Assembly: GCA_015711825.1 (NCBI GenBank) | Contig: JACVJD010000004.1 | Coordinates: 1-58,411 of the forward strand | DNA length: 58,411 nucleotides | Source of the DNA: Candidatus Solincola daggyaiensis | GTDB lineage: Bacteria; Actinomycetota; Geothermincolia; Geothermincolales; RBG-13-55-18 | Direction: 5' to 3' | Shown here: positions 20,281 through 56,419 of the stretch, piece by piece | Position numbering within the stretch: position 1 is the first letter of the stretch | How the letters are laid out: each line of letters starts with the position of its first letter | Translations under genes and position numbers: made by a program | The notes under the pieces: model-generated | The model's input: the letters and a program-made list of their open reading frames with translations, nothing else | Database searches by the model: none | What the model was told of the DNA's origin: nothing

Positions 20281-21102
20281 CTAGAAGCAGCCCAGGGAAC
20301 AGGCCACGATCTTCACGCCCAGGGCGTTGGCCGCCTTGCCCACCTCCAGGGTGGGGACCCCCAGCTCCTCGGCCAGCTTGAGGGCTACGGCGCAGGGGAT
20401 GCGTCCTTCCTCCGCCTTGGCCTTCACCGCCTCCAGGACCTTCTCCTCCACATCAGCGGACATGTGTTCACCTCCCAGTCTTGCCGCCGCGCGCGAGAGG
20501 ACCATCTCCCAGGCCCTCTCCCTTCCCAGCTCGCAGACCGCGACCAGCTTGGCGCGCGGGTTCAGCTCCTTTATCCTCCTCTCCAGCTCCAGCATCTCCC
20601 GGCCCGGCACGGCGCCTTCCCCGTTTATGACCACGGCGTGCGCCTTCCCGACGGCGCCGTAGGCCGATTCCTTGAAGCCCGCGAAGGTGGGCCCCATGAT
20701 GAACACGGCGTAGTCGGGCTCCAGGTGTGAGAGGACGCTGTTTCCCTCCACCACCACCACCGGTGCGTGCAGGCGCGAGAAGGCCTCCCGCAGGTCCGCC
20801 GCCAGCCCCTCCCGGGTGGAGCGCACCCAGAGCACGGGGCGCGCCCCCGCCGCCAGCAGGCGCGAGGTGTCCGTGGGAGGTGAGGAGGCCGGGTCCGTCT
20901 CCTCCAGGATGGCCTCTCCCGGCGGGCGTTGGGAGTGGATGGAGACCTTCATGCCCGCGCAGGCGCGGCAACGGCGGACCAGGTACGCGGCCAGGGAGCT
21001 CTTGCCGATATCCTTGTTGGCCCCGGAGATGGTGATGATGCGGGGCCTCTCGCGTCCCGAAAAAAGCCCGTCCGGAGAGGACGGGCGCGCATCGCTTCGC
21101 AT
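20281..21102 (-). CDS. MobB-like P-loop protein with C-terminal CSLGCF domain
   Basis: 273 residues. P-loop ITISGANKDIGKSSLAAYLV near 30-50, as in MobB (molybdopterin-guanine dinucleotide synthesis factor B), then an acidic middle part (VVVVEGNSVL..PDYAVFIMG). The last 60 residues form a separate helical domain (SADVEEKVLEAVKAKAEEGRIPCAVALKLAEELGV, ending KIVACSLGCF) with three Cys, resembling small helix-turn-helix-type proteins found near molybdenum genes. The start ATG 21102 follows AAGGAGAGG. It heads the tungstate operon. It probably helps cofactor maturation or senses cofactor state; the tail could be regulatory. Confidence 0.75.
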   Translation of the reverse strand: MRSDARPSSPDGLFSGRERPRIITISGANKDIGKSSLAAYLVRRCRACAGMKVSIHSQRPPGEAILEETDPASSPPTDTSRLLAAGARPVLWVRSTREGLAADLREAFSRLHAPVVVVEGNSVLSHLEPDYAVFIMGPTFAGFKESAYGAVGKAHAVVINGEGAVPGREMLELERRIKELNPRAKLVAVCELGRERAWEMVLSRAAARLGGEHMSADVEEKVLEAVKAKAEEGRIPCAVALKLAEELGVPTLEVGKAANALGVKIVACSLGCF

Positions 21103-21398
21103 ATGCCTCTCCTTTCCAAACACGGGAGGCGCAGGCGTTTCCATCTGCACCCTATCGGCCCGGCCCCCATAGCCGTCGCCTTAGGGAGCCGGGCTCGGAG
21201 AGCTCCTATATCAGGCTCTTCAAGCGAGGGTATTATAACGTGGAGAGCGCCGCGGCTTCAACGCCCTGTCCGGATCCGGCCGCCGCGCCGTGAAGGAGGG
21301 GGATGCCCGCTCCCTTTGATCTCGAAAAAAGCCGCCTGGGGAGCGGCGGGAGGTCTTCGGTAAGCCTGGGCACGAAAGCTCCCGCGCCCGACACCGGC

Positions 21399-48114: not shown

Positions 48115-49758
48115 TCAAGAGAGCACGGCGCCGCGGGCGGCTGAGCCCACCATCCTTACGTACCGGCGCATGAACCCCGCCGGCACCTCCCGCTCCGCGG
48201 GCCGGTGTTGCGCCAGGCGTGAGGAGATCTCCTCCTCGCTGAGCCTGACTTCCAGCCGGCGACCGGGAATGTCGATGCTTATCTCGTCCCCGTCGCGCAG
48301 CGCCGCGATGGGCCCTCCGGCGGCGGCCTCGGGCGAAACGTGCCCGATGCACGGACCCGAGGTGGCGCCCGAGAACCTGCCGTCGGTGATGAGGGCCACG
48401 CGGGTGAAACCGTGCAGCTCCAGCCCCATGGTCACCGCCAGCGTCTCCGGCATGCCCGGCCCACCCTTCGGTCCCTCGTTGCGGATGACCACCACCTCCC
48501 CCTCCCTCAGCGTCCCCTCGCGCAGGGCTGAGAGGCAGTCGGCCTCCGCCTCGAAGACCCGCGCCGGTCCCGAAAAGCGCAGCATCTCCGGGAGCACCGC
48601 CGACTGCTTGACCACCGCCCCCTCCGGCGCCAGGTTGCCGAAGAGCGCCACCGTGCCCCCTTGGGGGAAGAACGGGTTATCCCGCGTGCGTATGACCTCG
48701 CCGTCGCGGACCTCGGCCGCCTCCACCACCTCCGCGACGCTCTGCCCCATGACGTTCAACGCCTCCAGATGCAGGTCGTCGGCGAGCGTTTTCATCACCG
48801 CCGGCACGCCCCCGGCCCGGTAGAGGTCCTGGATACCGTGGGGTCCGTTGGGGGCGATGGAACACAGGGTGGGTATGCGCGGGTTGAAATCGTTGAAGCG
48901 CGAGAGGGGCAGTTCAAACCCCAGCTCGTGCGCGATGGCCGGGAGATGCAGGGCGGAGTTGGTGGAACCCCCTATGGCCAGGTCCACCATGAGGGCGTTC
49001 TCCACCGCCTTCTCGGTCAGCACCGCGCGCGCGCCGAGGCCCTCCTCGACCATCTCCACCACCCGCATGCCCGCGCGGCGGGCGAAGAGGAGCTTCTCGG
49101 AGAAGTAGGCGGGAACGTTGGCGGAGCCGGGTATGGTCAGTCCCATGGCCTCCGCCAGGCACTGGAAGGTGTTGGCGGTGCCCATGAGCTCGCATGATCC
49201 ACAGGTGGCGCAGGTGGCCGTGGCCAGCTTGTCCAGCAAGTCGGGGTAGTCCTTGTGGAAGATGCTGCCCGTGCTGCGCGGCGAGAACCTTATCTGAAAG
49301 GCCCCGGGGCCCCCGGTGAGCATGATCGCCGGCAGGTCAAGCCGCGCGGCCGCCATGATCATGCCCGGGATGATCTTGTCGCAGGAGGCGACCATGACCA
49401 TACCGTCGAAGAGCATGCTGCGGGCGTAGGTCTCCACCGTGTCCGCGATGAGCTCCCGCTGGGGAAGCACGAACCTCATGCCCTCGTTCCCCTCCGTGAA
49501 GCCGTCGCAGGGAGCCGGCACGTTGAACTCGAAGGGTATGCCTCCGGCGGCGTGCACTCCCTCCTTGACGCGCTCCGCCAGCGCGCGCAGATGCATGTGA
49601 CCGGGGTTCATATCCGTATGGGAGTTCGCGACGGCGATGATGGGTTTTCGCTTCAACTCCTCTATGTCCATGCCCAAACCCTGCATGATGGCGAGACGCG
49701 CGATGCTCACCGGGAAATCCCTCTCGTCGAAGATGGGGCCGCTCTTGGGTTTGGTCAT
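48115..49758 (-). CDS. ilvD: IlvD/Edd-family dehydratase (dihydroxy-acid dehydratase)
   Basis: 547 residues. Fe-S ligand motifs SCDKIIPG and CATCGSCE, the NPGHMHL string at the place where 2Fe-2S members have NPCN (so nearer to the E. coli IlvD type), GGSTNSALHL, and the C-terminal GRFSGATSGPCIGHVSPEAAAGGPIA. The GSCELMGTANTFQC segment differs from the usual GSCSGMFTANSM, so a sugar-acid or other dihydroxy-acid substrate is possible. It would make branched 2-keto acids if a true IlvD, yet no other ilv or leu genes are near. ATG after GGGGGTAATACC. Confidence 0.85.
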   Translation of the reverse strand: MTKPKSGPIFDERDFPVSIARLAIMQGLGMDIEELKRKPIIAVANSHTDMNPGHMHLRALAERVKEGVHAAGGIPFEFNVPAPCDGFTEGNEGMRFVLPQRELIADTVETYARSMLFDGMVMVASCDKIIPGMIMAAARLDLPAIMLTGGPGAFQIRFSPRSTGSIFHKDYPDLLDKLATATCATCGSCELMGTANTFQCLAEAMGLTIPGSANVPAYFSEKLLFARRAGMRVVEMVEEGLGARAVLTEKAVENALMVDLAIGGSTNSALHLPAIAHELGFELPLSRFNDFNPRIPTLCSIAPNGPHGIQDLYRAGGVPAVMKTLADDLHLEALNVMGQSVAEVVEAAEVRDGEVIRTRDNPFFPQGGTVALFGNLAPEGAVVKQSAVLPEMLRFSGPARVFEAEADCLSALREGTLREGEVVVIRNEGPKGGPGMPETLAVTMGLELHGFTRVALITDGRFSGATSGPCIGHVSPEAAAGGPIAALRDGDEISIDIPGRRLEVRLSEEEISSRLAQHRPAEREVPAGFMRRYVRMVGSAARGAVLS

Positions 49759-49905: not shown

Positions 49906-50245
49906 GTATGCGCGCCGGGCCCCGTCCTCGCCATCGCTCGCCTTCGGCTCGCTTCCGTCTCGGCCACGGCGCCCTGCACCGTGCCGCCGCCCTCCGAAAG
50001 CCTCGCGCGAGCGTATGCGTGCCAGGCCCCGTCCTCGCCATCGCTCGCCTTCGGCTCGCTTCCGTCTCGGCCACGGCGCCCTGCACCGTGCCGCCGCCCT
50101 CCGAAAGCCTCGCGCGAGCGTATGCGTGCCAGGCCCCGTCCTCGCCATCGCTCGCCTTCGGCTCGCTTCCGTCTCGGCCACGGCGCTGGACACTGCCACG
50201 CCTCCCTACGGTCGGCGTGGTCGCTTTCGCGATGCAATCTTCCGT
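49906..50245 (-). repeat. repeat array R1, three copies, period 107
   Basis: Copies start at 49906, 50013 and 50120 on the plus strand with GTATGCGTGCCAGGCC (first copy has two changes) and share a core of about 70 bases ending CCGTCTCGGCCACGGCG, separated by a 37-40-base spacer. The end nearest the oxidoreductase stop codon has, in transcript sense, CGGAAGATTGC then ATCGCGAAAGCGA (GAAA-capped hairpin) and CCACGCC..GGCGTGG. The element lies 11 bases after the stop of the gene at 50257. Confidence 0.9.
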
Positions 50246-50256
50246 GACGTTGTATG

Positions 50257-51753
50257 TTATTCGTGGCGGTTTATGAGGTCGGAGGCGATGATGCCGGAGG
50301 CGACCACCGACGGAATACCTCCTCCCGGATGGGTGGAGGCTCCCGCGAGGTACAGGCCTCTTATGCTCTTCGACTTCGCCGCCGGCCTGAACACCGCCGA
50401 GGACGATATATCCATGTCCAGTCCCAGGATAGCGCCTTCGGGGGTGAGCAGCCGACGCTCGTAATCCCTCGGGGTCAACACGTCCATCACCTCCACGTGA
50501 TCCGCCAGCCCGGGGATAGCCCGTTCGCTCAACATCTCTATCTGTTTTTCGCCGTATGCCTTCTTGTCGCGGTCCCAATCCAGCTCGCTGAGATGATAAG
50601 GTCCGGACAGCACGATGTTGAGCACATGGCGCCCTTGCGGGGCCATGCTTTCGTCCGAGAAGGTGGGAAAACAAACCAGGGCATAGGGTTCCCGGGGCAG
50701 CAGGCCCCTCGGCATGTCCTCGAACCAGTAGCGGTTGGTCTCCTCCATGGATACGGTGACGATATTGTGGTGGGCCTCCAGAGGCGGCCGGTAGTCCAGC
50801 CCCACGTTGATCATGGGAGCCGAGGCGGAGAGCCGATAGCTTTTGATCCCCTGCCTGGCGAGCCGGGGAAGATGCCCTTCTCCGATCATCTGCAGGTAAA
50901 GCGTTTTGGCGTTGATGTCGGAGACCACCACCGGGGCGCCGATCTCGGTGCCGTCGGCCAGGGCCACGCCCTGCACCCTGCGGCCGCTCACCATCACCTT
51001 CTCCACCCGTCGCCTCAGCGCGATCTCCATACCGAACCTCTCTCCACACCGTCGCAGAGCTTCCGGCAAGGCGATCATGCCGCCCCTGGGAAAGAAGACG
51101 CCCTCGTGCTCGGCGTAAGAGAGAAAGGCGAAGATCCCCGGGGCCAGGGCGGGGGGCTGACCGCAGAACTTCCCCGGGTAAGAGAGGGAATCCAGCACCC
51201 GCTCGTCCTTGAAATACCCCCGCATCACCTCCTCGAAGGAGCGGTTGAAGAGGGGGAGGAACTTGAGCAGGCGGGGGTTCTTCAGCATCACCTTTGCCAT
51301 GTCCGCCATGCCGTTCATGGGGCTGAGGAAGAACCCCTCCACGGCAGTGCGCATGAAATCGCCCACGTAGCGGGCGTACTCCAGCCATGCCTTGCCGTCC
51401 TGGGGTGAGATGCGGGAGATGATCTCGGCTTTCGCCTCTATGGAGGAAGGGTAGGTGATGCGCGAGCCGTCCTGAAGGATGATGCCGTAAACGGGGTCGC
51501 AGGGCTCCAGCTCGACCTCCTCGCCAAAGCCGGTGCCCAGCCTCTCGAAGGCGATCTCGAAGGGGCGCAATATCTCGAGGATGGTGGCGCCCACGTCGAA
51601 ACGGTAGCCCTTTCGTTCGTAGGTCGAACAGCAACCCCCTATGCTTCCTCCCTGCTCCAGCACCAGCGTCCTGCGACCTTGTTTCGCCAACAGCGCCCCC
51701 GCAGTCAACCCGCCGAGACCCGCCCCGATGACGATAACGTCGTAATCCGGCAT
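50257..51753 (-). CDS. CrtI-like FAD-dependent oxidoreductase
   Basis: 498 residues. VIVIGAGLGGLTAGALLAKQG..TLVLEQ, GGCCSTYERKGYRFDVGAT, YFPRGGMIALP-type block (FFPRGGMIALPEAL) and C-terminal LYLAGASTHPGGGIPSVVASG. Full-length paralogue of the proteins at 4670-6166 (closest by eye) and 12913-14430. ATG 51753 follows GGGGAGGTGCGGAG. Unlike the other two it is not followed by a small membrane protein gene; a repeat array is in that position instead. Substrate unknown. Confidence 0.85.
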   Translation of the reverse strand: MPDYDVIVIGAGLGGLTAGALLAKQGRRTLVLEQGGSIGGCCSTYERKGYRFDVGATILEILRPFEIAFERLGTGFGEEVELEPCDPVYGIILQDGSRITYPSSIEAKAEIISRISPQDGKAWLEYARYVGDFMRTAVEGFFLSPMNGMADMAKVMLKNPRLLKFLPLFNRSFEEVMRGYFKDERVLDSLSYPGKFCGQPPALAPGIFAFLSYAEHEGVFFPRGGMIALPEALRRCGERFGMEIALRRRVEKVMVSGRRVQGVALADGTEIGAPVVVSDINAKTLYLQMIGEGHLPRLARQGIKSYRLSASAPMINVGLDYRPPLEAHHNIVTVSMEETNRYWFEDMPRGLLPREPYALVCFPTFSDESMAPQGRHVLNIVLSGPYHLSELDWDRDKKAYGEKQIEMLSERAIPGLADHVEVMDVLTPRDYERRLLTPEGAILGLDMDISSSAVFRPAAKSKSIRGLYLAGASTHPGGGIPSVVASGIIASDLINRHE

Positions 51754-52060
51754 CTCCGCACCTCCCCCTGCTTCTTTGTCCCTCCCCCTGCGATAAGACC
51801 GGGGCCTTCCCATGTGCGCTCTTCAGCGGCTCGAAGGATCGCGCCTCGCCTTCGCATTCCCCTTATCGGCTCCCGAGATACCCGTTACCTCAGGAAAAGA
51901 CGCACCCCTGCAGGCAAAGTCCTTTCGTCCAAGGGGACCGGACAGCGGGCCACGCACAGCCCACGGCGCGGCCCGCCGGCGATCCCTGGTCGCCCCTCCC
52001 GGCTAAAAGAAGCGATCCGGGTCCACGTCCCAATGTCGATTATCCCCATCGGCGATCACG
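51754..52060. other. intergenic upstream of the CrtI-like gene
   Basis: No gene or clear promoter recognised before repeat array R2. Confidence 0.35.
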
Positions 52061-52378
52061 GTATGCGTGCCAGGCCCCGTCCTCGCCTCTGCTCGTTTCA
52101 CTCGCTTCCGTCTCGGCCACGCCTCTTGCGCATCGTCCGCGCCCCTGGTATGCGGGGGTATGCGTGCCAGGCCCCGTCCTCGCCTCTGCTCGTTTCACTC
52201 GCTTCCGTCTCGGCCACGCCTCTTGCGCATCGTCCGCGCCCCTGGTATGCGGGGGTATGCGTGCCAGGCCCCGTCCTCGCCTCTGCTCGTTTCACTCGCT
52301 TCCGTCTCGGCCACGGCGCTGGACACTGCCACGCCTCCCTGCGGTCGGCGTGGTCGCTTTCGCGATGCAATCTTCCGT
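52061..52378 (-). repeat. repeat array R2, three copies, period 97
   Basis: Copies start at 52061, 52158 and 52255. The core is the same as R1 but with CTCTGCTCGTTTCACTCGC in place of CATCGCTCGCCTTCGGCTCGC, and a different spacer (CCTCTTGCGCATCGTCCG..). The last 75 bases before the gene end match the R1 tail with a single difference. It lies seven bases after the stop of the BKACE gene. Confidence 0.9.
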
Positions 52379-52385
52379 TGGGTGA

Positions 52386-53351
52386 TCAATAGCTGCTGGG
52401 CTCTTGGGAGATCCCCAGCATCTCCCGCGCCTGCTGCGGGGTGGCCACCTCGCGGTTGAGCTCATGCGCGATGCGCACCATCCTGGCCACCAGCTCGGCG
52501 TTGTTCTTGAGTTTCCTTCCCCTTGAATAATACAGGTTGTCCTCCATGCCCACGCGCACATGCCCGCCCAGCAACACCGACATCACGGTCATGGGGAGCT
52601 GATACGGGCCCACCCCGATGGCGAAGAAGATGGACTGGGGAGGCAGCTCGTCGATGAGCGAGAGCAGGTTCTTGGGCGTGGGGAAGGATGAGGTCTGGAA
52701 GCCCATGACGAACTGGATGTCGTAGGGCGGGTCGATGAGCCCCTGCATGATGAGGTCCTGCACCACCCAGTACATGCCCGGATGGTAGAGCTCCATCTCC
52801 GGCTTGATGCCCTTCTCCTTCATGGTCTTGGCGTAGAGGCTGATGTCGGCGTAGGAATTGGGGATGCAGCGGTCATAGACCATGGCTGGGCGCGGGCTGG
52901 GCAGGGGCTCCGCCCTCTCGCGCAGGGGCACCTTGAGCACGAAGGGCCCCAGGTTGAGGGAGCACAGCTCCGGGTTGGCGTAGATGCTCGCCATGCGCTG
53001 CTCGGTGGTCAGCTCCGGTCCACCCCCGGTGGTGTTGTTGATGATGATGTCCGGGCACTTGTCGCGGATCATGGCGTTGATGCGCAGGTAATCCTCGGGG
53101 TTGCTGGAGGTCATCCACCACACCTCGGGGTTGCGCGCGTGCACGTGCACGATGCTCGCGCCCGCCTTGTAGGCCTCGTAGGTCTGTTCCGCCTGCTCCT
53201 CCGGCGTCTCGGGAAGGTTCTCGTTGGCCTCCTTCCCCTCCACGCCCCCCGTGATGGCCACGGAGATGATGAGCGGCGGGAGCCCCTTCCTAGTCCGGCT
53301 CATCCACTCGTACGGGTTTCGGTAGTCCCACATGTAGTCATCCGGGTTCAT
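52386..53351 (-). CDS. BKACE-family enzyme (3-keto-5-aminohexanoate cleavage type)
   Basis: 321 residues. It starts with a TIM-barrel strand PLIISVAITGGVEG, then the metal-binding HVHARNP (about 73-79), IINNTTGGG, and the hallmark VRVGMEDN near 272. These are the BKACE (DUF849) marks: a zinc enzyme that condenses a beta-keto acid with acetyl-CoA, giving a CoA ester and acetoacetate. In this cluster it may release a CoA ester from a beta-keto acid. ATG after AAAAGGAGGCAGGCG. Confidence 0.88.
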   Translation of the reverse strand: MNPDDYMWDYRNPYEWMSRTRKGLPPLIISVAITGGVEGKEANENLPETPEEQAEQTYEAYKAGASIVHVHARNPEVWWMTSSNPEDYLRINAMIRDKCPDIIINNTTGGGPELTTEQRMASIYANPELCSLNLGPFVLKVPLRERAEPLPSPRPAMVYDRCIPNSYADISLYAKTMKEKGIKPEMELYHPGMYWVVQDLIMQGLIDPPYDIQFVMGFQTSSFPTPKNLLSLIDELPPQSIFFAIGVGPYQLPMTVMSVLLGGHVRVGMEDNLYYSRGRKLKNNAELVARMVRIAHELNREVATPQQAREMLGISQEPSSY

Positions 53352-53398
53352 CGCCTGCCTCCTTTTCCTCGCTCAATCCTTCCCGTTAACGCACCCCC

Positions 53399-53768
53399 AA
53401 GCGTGCCGGGCCCCGTCCTCGCCTCTGCTCGTTTCACTCACTCCGTCTCGGCCACGGCGACCGGCATACGCCGCCCCGCGGGATGGCTACCTCGCGCCTT
53501 CGTATGCGTGCCAGGCCCCGTCCTCGCCTCTGCTCGTTTCACTCACTCCGTCTCGGCCACGGCGACTGGCACCGTGCCGCCGCCCTCCGGGCGTCGTCAT
53601 CGCTTTCGCGATACGCGGCTGTCCCGGCCTTTTCCCTCGCGCCTTCGTATGCGTGCCAGGCCCCGTCCTCGCCTCTGCTCGTTTCACTCACTCCGTCTCG
53701 GCCACGGCGACTGGCACCGTGCCGCCGCCCTCCGGGCGTCGTCATCGCTTTCGCGATACATTCTTCCG
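53399..53768 (-). repeat. repeat array R3, three copies, period about 145 for the last two
   Basis: Copies start at about 53399 (5' part shortened), 53502 and 53647. The core matches R2 (CTCTGCTCGTTTCACTCACTCCG) but the spacer is longer and carries GGCACCGTGCC, the CGCCC-GGA-GGGCG stem and the ATCGC-GAAA-GCGAT hairpin within each unit. It lies five bases after the stop of the 881-residue fusion gene. Confidence 0.9.
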
Positions 53769-53773
53769 AAACG

Positions 53774-56419
53774 TCAGATTTTTATGCGGAGGTTGGTGAG
53801 GGGGAAGCTCATGCAGGGGTGGATGAAGCCCGCCTTCTCGTCCACCCAGCGCTTGAGCACCCGCTCGGGCACGAAGACCTCGCCCTCCAGCAGCCTGGTG
53901 CGGCAGACGGTGCACTCCCCGGAGCGGCATATCGCCTCCACCACCAAACCCGCCCGCTCCAGGGAGTTCATCAGGGGCTCCCCGGAGCGCGCCTGGAAGG
54001 TCTTGCCGGTGCGCTCCTCCACCACCTCGAAGACCGCGTCCGGGTCGGACCCCGGCCAGCCCGGCTCGGCGGTGATGTCCTGGGGCGGGCCGTAGGCCTC
54101 GCGGCGTATCCTCCGCTTCGGCACCCCCAGGGAGAGCAAGGCCTTTTCGCACAGCAGGTACATCTGGGCGGGCCCGCAGAGGTAGAAGGTCTTTCCCTCC
54201 ACCTCCCCCACCAGGCGCGAGATCATCTCCGCGTCCAGCAGCCCGCACAGCCCCGACCAACCCTGGGGGGGCTCGGAGATGACGTAGTCCACCTTGAGCC
54301 CGGGCACCTTGCCCTCCAGCCCCTTCATCTCCTCGCCGAAGATGATGTCGCCGGGATCCCTGCTGCCGTAGATGAGGTGTATCTTCAATTCCGTGCCCTT
54401 TTCGGCCGCCTCGCGGATAATGGAGGCGAAGGGGGTTATCCCCGACCCGCCCGCCAGAAAGACCAGGTCGTCGGTGTCCATGGCGGGCTCATGGAAGAAG
54501 CTTCCAAAGGGGCTGGTGGACTCGAAGCGGTCGCCCGGCTTCACCTCGTCCAGGAGGTAATTGGACACGAACCCGCCCGCGGTGCGGCGCACGGTGATGT
54601 CCCAGTAATCGGTTCCGGGCGGAGAGGAGATGGAATACGGGCGCGAGGTGAGCACCCCTCCCACCCGGCAGAAGAGGTTGACGTACTGGCCGGCGCGGAA
54701 CCAGGGCAGCTCCCCTTGCGCCGCCGTCATGCGCAGGGTCTTGGCGGTGGGGGTCTCCTCGACGACCTCCGCCACCTCCAGCTGCACCCGGTCTGGATGC
54801 AGGCCGGCCAGGGCCCGCTCCACGCGCGTGACGGGGCTGTCGGGGAGCTCCCTGCCCTCCACCTGCTTCTCCATCTCCTTCTGCAGTTTCTCCAAGGCGC
54901 CGGGCTTCGGCCCCCCCGCCTCCATGTCCTCCAGCACCTTGCGGGAGGTGAGGAAGCCGGAATACATGGAGGGCTCGTAGCCACCCCCGATGTTCACCCA
55001 CGCCCCCGAGAAGTAGAGGCCCTCTATGGGGCCCTGGGCGGGCATGCGCACCAGGCCGGTGCCGGCGAAGGTCTCGTCGAAGCCGATGATGCTCCCCCCT
55101 ACGTTGCGGGAATACCTGATGTTGGTGAGCGGGGTGGCGACCTCGATGACCTCGATGTGGTCACGTATGCCGTGAGCGACGTTCTCCGCCAGGTCCAGCA
55201 CCCTCTCCGCCGCCCTCTCCTTGGCCTCCGCGTACTGGGACGGCGGCAGTTTCATCCAGGGCTCGGCGAAGGCGATGTAGGTGCACACCAGGGAGGAGGT
55301 CCCCGGAGGCGAGAACTCCGGGTCCACGGTGTTGTACGCGGTCACCGCGATGTCCGAGGGCAACAGGGTCTCCCCTTTCTTGACCCTCATCCAGTTGCCG
55401 TCCACGTCGTAGCCGTCGCTGTAGAAGGTCTCGTGGTGGCCGAGGCCGAGGTCGCGGTAGTCACAGTCCACTCCCAGGTAAAGGTTGACGGTGGAGGCGC
55501 CGCCCGTCCAGGCGCCCAGGCGCTTGAGGTACCACTCCGGGACCTTCTCCCGCCCGATGAGCTCCAGGCAGGCCACGTAGGGGTTGGCGTTGCTCACCAC
55601 CACGGGGCAGAGGACCTCCGTGCCGTCCTGGGCCACCACGCCCCTGACTTTCCCCTCCTCCACCAGGATGCGCGCGGCGCCGTTGCGCACCCATACCTCG
55701 CCGCCCATGTCCTCGATGGAATCCATGAAGGCCTGGGAGAGGGCCTGGCTCTTGCCCTTCACGTGCCAGGGACCGAAGCGCAGGTAGCTCACCGTGCCCA
55801 GGGCGTAGGTGAGGAAGGAGAGCGCGGAAGGGTTGTTGCAGTAGTACCCGCAGAGGACGTTGAACACCGTGCAGGCGCGCTCGTCCTTGATGAACTGATC
55901 CATGACCTCCTTGAGGCTCTTGCCGAAATACTTGATGAGGTTGGGAAATTCCTCCTGGTGCTCCATGACCATCTTGGTGCCCACGCGGTTGGCGCGTAAG
56001 GCCTCCTCGGCGTACTTGAACATCAGCTCGGTGAAATCCCGGATCCCGTCCGCGTCCGCCGGGAAGTATTCCGCCAGGGCGGCGATGAAAGCGTCCTTGC
56101 CGATGGGCACCACCACGTCCACGTCCGGGAGCACGCAACGGTAGAACTCGGGGATGGGCAAAAACTCCACCCGCCTGGCCACGTCCACCTCGTTGAGCAG
56201 CCTCCACAGCGGGCCGGGGTTCTTCTCGTCCCCCAGCCCCGAGAGCTCGTGCAGGGAGATCTCGAACTCGAAGCGCCCGCGCACGAAGGAGGATGCGTAA
56301 CCTCCCGGCACGTAGTGGCGCTCCAGGACGAGGACCTTTTTCCCCGCCTTGGCCAGGAAGGCCGCCGAGGACAGGCCCCCCAGGCCGGCCCCGACCACAA
56401 CCGCGTCGTAATCCTTCAT
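53774..56419 (-). CDS. CrtI-like oxidoreductase fused to ferredoxin reductase and 2Fe-2S ferredoxin
   Basis: 881 residues in one frame. Module 1 (1-505) is a CrtI-like flavoprotein: VVVGAGLGGLSSAAFL..LVLERH, GGYASSF and GLYFSGAWVNIGGGYEPSMYSG. Module 2 (about 540-780) is a ferredoxin-NAD(P) reductase: FAD motif RPYSISSP (593-600), GGSGITP (657-663), LCGPAQMY (747-754). Module 3 (about 795-881) is a plant-type 2Fe-2S ferredoxin with C831, C836, C839 (CRSGECTVC) and C869. The linker 505-540 is charged and helical. Together it could move electrons between NAD(P)H and the CrtI-type flavin through the Fe-S cluster in one chain. ATG after GGGAGGGG. It differs more from the other three CrtI-like proteins than they do from each other. 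Confidence 0.9.
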   Translation of the reverse strand: MKDYDAVVVGAGLGGLSSAAFLAKAGKKVLVLERHYVPGGYASSFVRGRFEFEISLHELSGLGDEKNPGPLWRLLNEVDVARRVEFLPIPEFYRCVLPDVDVVVPIGKDAFIAALAEYFPADADGIRDFTELMFKYAEEALRANRVGTKMVMEHQEEFPNLIKYFGKSLKEVMDQFIKDERACTVFNVLCGYYCNNPSALSFLTYALGTVSYLRFGPWHVKGKSQALSQAFMDSIEDMGGEVWVRNGAARILVEEGKVRGVVAQDGTEVLCPVVVSNANPYVACLELIGREKVPEWYLKRLGAWTGGASTVNLYLGVDCDYRDLGLGHHETFYSDGYDVDGNWMRVKKGETLLPSDIAVTAYNTVDPEFSPPGTSSLVCTYIAFAEPWMKLPPSQYAEAKERAAERVLDLAENVAHGIRDHIEVIEVATPLTNIRYSRNVGGSIIGFDETFAGTGLVRMPAQGPIEGLYFSGAWVNIGGGYEPSMYSGFLTSRKVLEDMEAGGPKPGALEKLQKEMEKQVEGRELPDSPVTRVERALAGLHPDRVQLEVAEVVEETPTAKTLRMTAAQGELPWFRAGQYVNLFCRVGGVLTSRPYSISSPPGTDYWDITVRRTAGGFVSNYLLDEVKPGDRFESTSPFGSFFHEPAMDTDDLVFLAGGSGITPFASIIREAAEKGTELKIHLIYGSRDPGDIIFGEEMKGLEGKVPGLKVDYVISEPPQGWSGLCGLLDAEMISRLVGEVEGKTFYLCGPAQMYLLCEKALLSLGVPKRRIRREAYGPPQDITAEPGWPGSDPDAVFEVVEERTGKTFQARSGEPLMNSLERAGLVVEAICRSGECTVCRTRLLEGEVFVPERVLKRWVDEKAGFIHPCMSFPLTNLRIKI

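Follow-up and report, generated by a model that had tools for sequence, protein, structure and literature searches.

Three arrays of a structured repeat at the locus

The window analyzed here, a stretch of 58,411 nucleotides (nt) from the contig JACVJD010000004.1 of Candidatus Solincola daggyaiensis, holds three arrays of one repeated element, all of them 3' of minus-strand genes: R1 (49906-50241), R2 (52060-52374) and R3 (53404-53765). The element is read on the minus strand, which also codes for the neighboring genes, and starts shortly after a stop codon in each array, at 15 nt in R1 (stop at 50257), 11 nt in R2 (stop at 52386) and 8 nt in R3 (stop at 53774); counted from the sequence, the closing stem of its predicted fold (P1) stands 13-20 nt behind the stop. 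The unit adjacent to the stop is in each case a full element of about 120 nt, and the later units of R1 and R2 and the last unit of R3 are 5'-truncated (Table 1).

A preliminary description of this DNA had proposed a repeated core of about 70 bases, placed 11, 7 or 5 bases after the stops with periods of 107, 97 and about 145, filling the gap to the next gene and occurring nowhere else in the 58 kb. The core is real, but it represents only the 3' half of the element, namely the arm P4. The arrays are indeed close to the stops, although at the distances given above, and the periods hold for R1 (107, three copies) and R2 (97, three copies), whereas R3 is irregular, with a spacing of 105 and then 145. 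The gap is nearly filled only in R3, where 52 nt are left; about 150 nt remain after R1 and about 310 nt after R2. As to its absence elsewhere, matches to sub-patterns of the core were confined to R1-R3 (0 in 100 shuffles), and a covariance-model search of the 58-kb window found no copy outside the three arrays.

Fold and covariation of the element

In transcript sense, the element runs from AATGC through the hairpins P2, with a GNRA cap, and P3, whose loops are mostly GNA (for example CCACGCC-GACCGTAGGGA-GGCGTGG), and a long arm (P4, GTG(Y)CCAG ... CTGGCAC) to a 3'-terminal GCATAC able to pair with the first bases of the element, such that P1 closes a predicted layout of four arms. RNAalifold gave this P1-P4 layout on 13 copies. 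In the curated structure, 93.1% of the cells were paired, compared with 24-43% when the structure was slid, and double-sided changes were found in 28 cells against 10.3 in shuffles. An alignment of 140 distinct copies, which are mutually related and were fitted to the covariance model, showed double changes at 19 of 31 pairs (245 cells against 93). When 35 copies from genus g6 were aligned separately, RNAalifold, working without the model, found P2 and P4 again and missed P3. The covariation that the preliminary description had suggested looking for is thus strong.

The loop of P2 is GNAA in 105 of the 107 parsed copies, that of P3 is mostly C(GNA)G, and P4 often carries UUCCGA or C(GNA)G, on different stems. 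The tip of P4 is hypervariable in sequence, yet base-paired, and the P4 arm is replaced wholesale between genomes. In the home genome, a metagenome-assembled genome (MAG) of 2.99 Mb, this tip reads GCGAGC-N-GCGAGC, which has the look of a direct repeat, but is paired as a hairpin in the predicted fold; the symmetric GA/GA internal loops of the tip could form tandem sheared G-A pairs. Of five single copies, four folded clearly better than their shuffles (z about -3 to -3.6), and the R3 copy only weakly so (z -1.66, 12 of 200 shuffles as good). The sense strand was more stable than the antisense strand in 101 of 125 copies with RNA parameters and in 112 of 125 with DNA parameters; since the bias is the same under both, it cannot separate RNA from single-stranded DNA (ssDNA).

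Distribution across genomes

BLAST gave 23 matches at about 14 places in the home genome, and copies were found in five other MAGs from independent projects, so that the search of the source genome and its relatives proposed in the preliminary description was positive on both counts. With the covariance model, 19-46 copies per genome were detected in the genera g1 and g6, and one weak copy per genome in g5; there was none in g2, g3, g4 or the remaining members of the class examined. These counts are lower bounds, because the scoring covered only 116-150 candidates in each genome and because contigs end inside the repeat: the MAG assembly of the home genome breaks there in C22, C113 and C126. 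When 84,980 species genomes were scanned for one exact pattern, which was built from known copies and which divergent copies can escape, the only matches were in four MAGs (G001, G007, G012 and G014). Across its class, searched with the covariance model, and across the 84,980 species genomes, searched with one exact pattern, the element occurs only in one family.

No match was found in the viral contigs, phages and plasmids searched, and a phage, plasmid or viral origin was rejected on these grounds. Rfam (release 15) gave no match in the arrays with gathering or relaxed thresholds, the best sub-threshold hit (E 0.66) lying outside them, and a partial literature search found no actinobacterial intergenic repeat of such kind. 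The element is apparently undescribed, and no searched catalogue contains it.

Placement at gene ends, shared sites and turnover

Placement was counted over six genomes, with genes called by a simple codon-usage caller. In the home genome, an upstream gene was called for 11 sites, and every one of these is in sense, at -26 to +32 nt from the stop; one further degenerate copy lies just after another stop. Codirectional gene pairs of the six genomes carry 43 sense and 12 antisense sites (binomial p 3e-5, the sites being not fully independent). Four of the antisense sites (L084, L085, L087 and L088) are arrays of genome G002 that are fused to the terminal palindrome of a RAYT element, as described below, and many g6 copies have no tie to a stop codon. 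The proposal that copies always lie 3' of genes in the same orientation thus holds for the home genome, but not for g6 and part of G002; random positions or orientations, or a merely local occurrence, which had been named as signs of simple duplication, are not what the home genome presents. At one thiolase gene of the home genome (L009, contig C113), a copy shortened at its 5' end has the stop codon within its P3 stem. Copies also stand between rplA and rplJ, the usual position of the L10 leader, and between rplL and rpoB (L016 in contig C69 of the home genome; L099 in G007).

Orthologous gene ends are occupied in both genera, among others those of thiolase (five genomes), amidohydrolase/CoA-transferase (four) and rplL-rpoB (three), and the offset from the stop is nearly equal across genomes at the thiolase, amidohydrolase and rplL sites. 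In 56 comparisons from an ortholog set assembled by hand, the similarity between copies at orthologous sites did not exceed that between random copies drawn from the two genomes (29 of 56), and in 47 a copy was closer to its best counterpart within its own genome than to the ortholog. The dispersed copies form genome-typical subfamilies. Genome-typical copies at shared sites are most simply explained by gene conversion at old sites, which we infer; the alternative would be repeated insertion into the same spot. The R2 site is empty in G002, where the protein of the upstream gene is 97% identical, and a convergent site common to G012 and G014 carries copies in opposite orientation (L118, L131). 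Many g6 copies (in G012 and G014: L109, L116, L117, L119, L120, L125-L128 and L133-L137) have common flanks such as CCATCCGTCTGAGCAACCCC, which, on the sequence, suggests that a larger composite repeat may exist there.

Link to RAYT transposases and formation of the arrays

Five arrays in G002 (L083, L084, L085, L087 and L088) end in AAAATGTCCCATGTCCGGGGCTGACCCCAT at nearly one junction, and this palindrome also flanks a RAYT gene of the same genome (a Y1 transposase, L194) on both sides in inverted orientation. Matches to the RAYT-type palindrome numbered 86 in G002, 33 in G012 and 10 in G014, with none in G000 or G001. This RAYT terminal inverted repeat (TIR) bounds the element at one end in the five arrays, the other end being without palindrome, and is absent from the home genome. 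The five fused arrays probably owe their movement to a RAYT; for the other copies such a link would be conjecture. The home genome has two RAYT-like Y1 transposase genes (L033 and L034) with flanking repeats of their own, GGTCAGGTCTTG; TCAGACATTGGGGTCACGC, unlike the element. A RAYT as partner through flanking copies was rejected, because both of these genes have other flanking repeats and no Y1 locus carries the element.

The later units of the arrays begin inside P3 or P4 and retain the 3' end, and in other G002 arrays the 5' part is repeated and the tip of P4 is missing, such that the units are 3'-truncated. The arrays look like local duplications broken at hairpins; tandem duplication of a segment that breaks once within a hairpin and once in the flanking sequence would lead to both types of truncation, with no need for 5' truncation of the retro type. 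Target-primed reverse transcription, suggested by the 5'-truncated units, was rejected because of the 3'-truncated ones in G002. An RVT_1 search in the element-rich genomes G000, G002, G007 and G014 found no reverse transcriptase, on which ground mobilization by such an enzyme was also discarded. An autonomous copy with an internal gene was not supported either: in the home genome, the patterns of the 5' half and the 3' half pair at element distance, the exceptions being one degenerate copy and those interrupted where a contig ends; no composite of gene size was seen. Four reverse-transcriptase matches with identical scores in G001 (C34, C38, C40 and C67) possibly belong to one multicopy retroelement.

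Comparison with known repeats

The closest known systems are the repetitive extragenic palindromic (REP) sequences, the bacterial interspersed mosaic elements (BIME) and the REP doublets forming hairpins (REPIN), with their RAYT (TnpA-REP). They share with the element the dispersed intergenic hairpins, often behind genes near stops, the tandem clusters, the non-autonomous nature and the genome-typical variants. Effects on mRNA and translation are known for some REP elements (PMC12306157, PMC3733652, PMC8266576), and in E. coli REPs less than 16 nt from the stop lower translation (PMC12306157). REPs measure 20-50 nt, whereas the element has about 120 nt and four arms, one of them hypervariable; it lacks the GTAG foot (aligned 5' feet are, for example, AAGAAT, CAGAAT and TAGAAC, and 3' feet GCATAC and GTGTAC), it flanks no RAYT, its arrays are direct rather than alternating, and its detected copies are tens and not hundreds. 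Copies are extragenic, as REPs are, but with about 85-155 nt, several arms and 19-46 detected copies (lower bounds) they fall outside the REP range of size and number. The element is a REP-like structured repeat that behaves like REP/BIME but lacks the features of GTAG-REPs tested, namely foot, flanked RAYT and size.

CGTC-tagged REPs (PMC3733652) likewise have no dedicated transposase although their genomes carry Y1 genes; the element is much larger and actinobacterial, whereas that study lists five other phyla, and the CGTC tag is absent in the home genome, where the ends are AAGAATGC and GCATACG/GCATACC. RAYT genes with long terminal repeats (TIR-type, PMC3733652) resemble it in the five G002 copies joined to a RAYT-flanking end, but an attached element is known for only five of the 86 palindrome matches in G002, and the palindrome is absent from the element-rich G000 and G001. 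As for integron attC sites, the ends read as ATGC/GCAT stems without RYYYAAC/GTTRRRY cores, no integrase search having been made. ERIC, BOX and Correia elements are structured, transcribed and modular repeats of about 100 nt, and BOX has tandemly amplified modules; by their general description, they belong to other phyla, and the element differs in its four-arm layout with GNRA/GNA loops.

Features of the window

The coordinates of the units, arms and neighboring genes are collected in Table 1. Elsewhere in the window, a Molybdenum/tungsten cofactor (Moco) riboswitch (Rfam RF01055, 88.6 bits) lies at 21094-21212 on the minus strand.

Table 1. Repeat units, arms of the R1 element and neighboring genes in the window.
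Feature	Position	Strand	Basis
R1 full-length element, first unit after the stop at 50257	50120..50241	-	covariance model 133.5 bits, positions 1-121; fold -54.5 kcal/mol, 0/200 shuffles as stable
R1 arm P2, TCGC-GAAA-GCGA, GNRA-capped hairpin	50221..50232	-	sequence; GNAA loop in 105/107 parsed copies
R1 arm P3, CCACGCC..GGCGTGG, GNA triloop and GA/GA internal loop	50196..50220	-	double-sided compensatory changes at 7/7 outer stem pairs
R1 arm P4, basal GTG(Y)CCAG/CTGGCAC stem and hypervariable distal arm (the core first described)	50126..50193	-	RNAalifold layout, loop parsing, covariation
R1 second unit, 5'-truncated, start in P3	50013..50119	-	period 107
R1 third unit, 5'-truncated	49906..50012	-	period 107
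R2 full-length element, stop at 52386	52255..52374	-	123.4 bits
R2 second unit, 5'-truncated in P4	52158..52254	-	period 97
R2 third unit, 5'-truncated in P4	52061..52157	-	period 97
R3 full-length element, stop at 53774	53647..53765	-	116.6 bits
R3 second full-length unit	53502..53620	-	103.5 bits; 145-nt spacing
R3 third unit, 5'-truncated	53404..53466	-	48.5 bits, model positions 50-114
Gene 5' of R3: FAD oxidoreductase fused to NAD-binding reductase and 2Fe-2S domain	53774..56419	-	Pfam
Gene 5' of R2: beta-keto acid cleavage enzyme (BKACE)	52386..53351	-	PF05853
Gene 5' of R1: phytoene-desaturase-like FAD oxidoreductase	50257..51753	-	PF01593
Next gene after R1: dihydroxy-acid dehydratase	48115..49758	-	PF00920

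Discussion

We lean, with somewhat better than even confidence, toward a family-specific, non-autonomous, REP/BIME-like structured mobile repeat that acts as RNA at cistron ends. What was observed is a covarying structure, a placement and orientation at gene ends, shared sites with genome-typical sequence, turnover, and the fusion to RAYT ends. Both options raised in the preliminary description gained support: that of an element of the 3' untranslated region (UTR) from the sense-strand covariation, the bias of 43 to 12 and the shared gene ends, and that of a mobile repeat targeting gene ends from the genome-typical subfamilies, the empty R2 site, the reversed site and the RAYT fusion. As DNA, the element would be mobile, now or formerly, and in G002 it probably moved at least partly as cargo joined to the end palindromes of a RAYT (Y1 transposase); for its agent of movement outside G002, as for every step of RNA function, we can only infer. 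Gene conversion is the most likely means by which the copies of a genome would be kept alike, and local multiplication would yield tandem arrays with breakpoints in the hairpins of the element. As RNA, a sense copy just behind a stop would cap the 3' border of its cistron with a rigid structure of four arms. Most likely, this would define the 3' end of the upstream message and shield it, by blocking 3'-5' decay or marking a processing site; read-through to the next cistron would be lowered, and the closest copies may slow ribosome release. By analogy with REPs, a structure 13-20 nt behind the stop could exert all three effects.

Several observations weigh against this account. A sizeable minority of the g6 copies and some G002 copies are antisense or distant from a stop, and in G001 the spacers at the R2 and R3 sites hold degenerate sequence that was read by eye as decayed elements. 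None of the 23 Y1_Tnp loci in 12 genomes had a significant element match (best E 0.73), and Y1 transposases are equally common in genera without the element. Moreover, recognition of ssDNA by a transposase could explain the strand bias without a role for RNA. This last point leads to the strongest rival, which we consider clearly less probable but serious: a purely selfish hairpin MITE (miniature inverted-repeat transposable element), whose sense-strand structure would be the ssDNA signal for a Y1/HUH (RAYT-type) transposase with no RNA function, and whose place at gene ends would reflect tolerated insertion sites and a strand preference. The RAYT-end fusion in G002, the folds with DNA parameters that also favor the sense strand, the antisense copies and decayed sites, and the genome-typical subfamilies all agree with it. 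It accounts less well for sites kept in two genera at nearly equal offset from the stop, for the sense bias and for GNRA and UUCCGA loops, which are typical of RNA, and no RAYT is flanked by the element while RAYTs are present where it is absent.

The converse explanation, in which mobility is incidental and the element is a selected cis-acting RNA of 3' UTRs or intercistronic regions, kept uniform by gene conversion and serving as attenuator, as processing site or for the binding of a protein in a regulon shared by acyl-CoA, redox and ribosomal operons, appears improbable to us. The strong covariation, the presence at the gene ends of rplL-rpoB, thiolase and CoA-transferase in both genera, and the position inside operons with a codirectional next gene would fit; however, the element is lacking in the other genera examined, also in a g4 genome with a close homolog of the R1 gene, some orthologous sites are empty or decayed, copies occur in antisense, and the arm P4 is replaced wholesale between genomes. 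Intrinsic transcription terminators are very unlikely in spite of the stable GC-rich hairpins directly after stop codons: no T-tract follows the hairpins, that is, there is no U-tract on the transcribed strand, the units lie inside apparent operons, and the terminator-like sites of the region lie without exception on the opposite strand and are no more frequent than by chance (3 against 2.7). Finally, the near identity of the units within each array and the several contigs ending inside the repeat might be taken for a local tandem duplication or an assembly artefact limited to this region; the occurrence at about 14 places in the home genome and in five other MAGs from independent projects refutes it.

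Going beyond the mobile repeat that would act as RNA at cistron ends, we tentatively suggest, as a rather speculative extension, that a domesticated mobile repeat could have become the standard 3'-border module of operon cistrons in two genera. Selection on the RNA fold and gene conversion would maintain it, while the arm would be replaced wholesale, possibly by template switching, with pairing and loop type kept. The exchange of a whole paired arm with the loop type kept would offer a test case for the evolution of hairpins by template switching (PMC8794818). The element adds a structured repeat family with clear covariation to actinobacteria known here only from metagenome assemblies, and its shared sites with genome-typical sequence provide a natural case in which to study whether intergenic hairpins of bacteria persist through transposition, gene conversion or a use as 3'-end signals.

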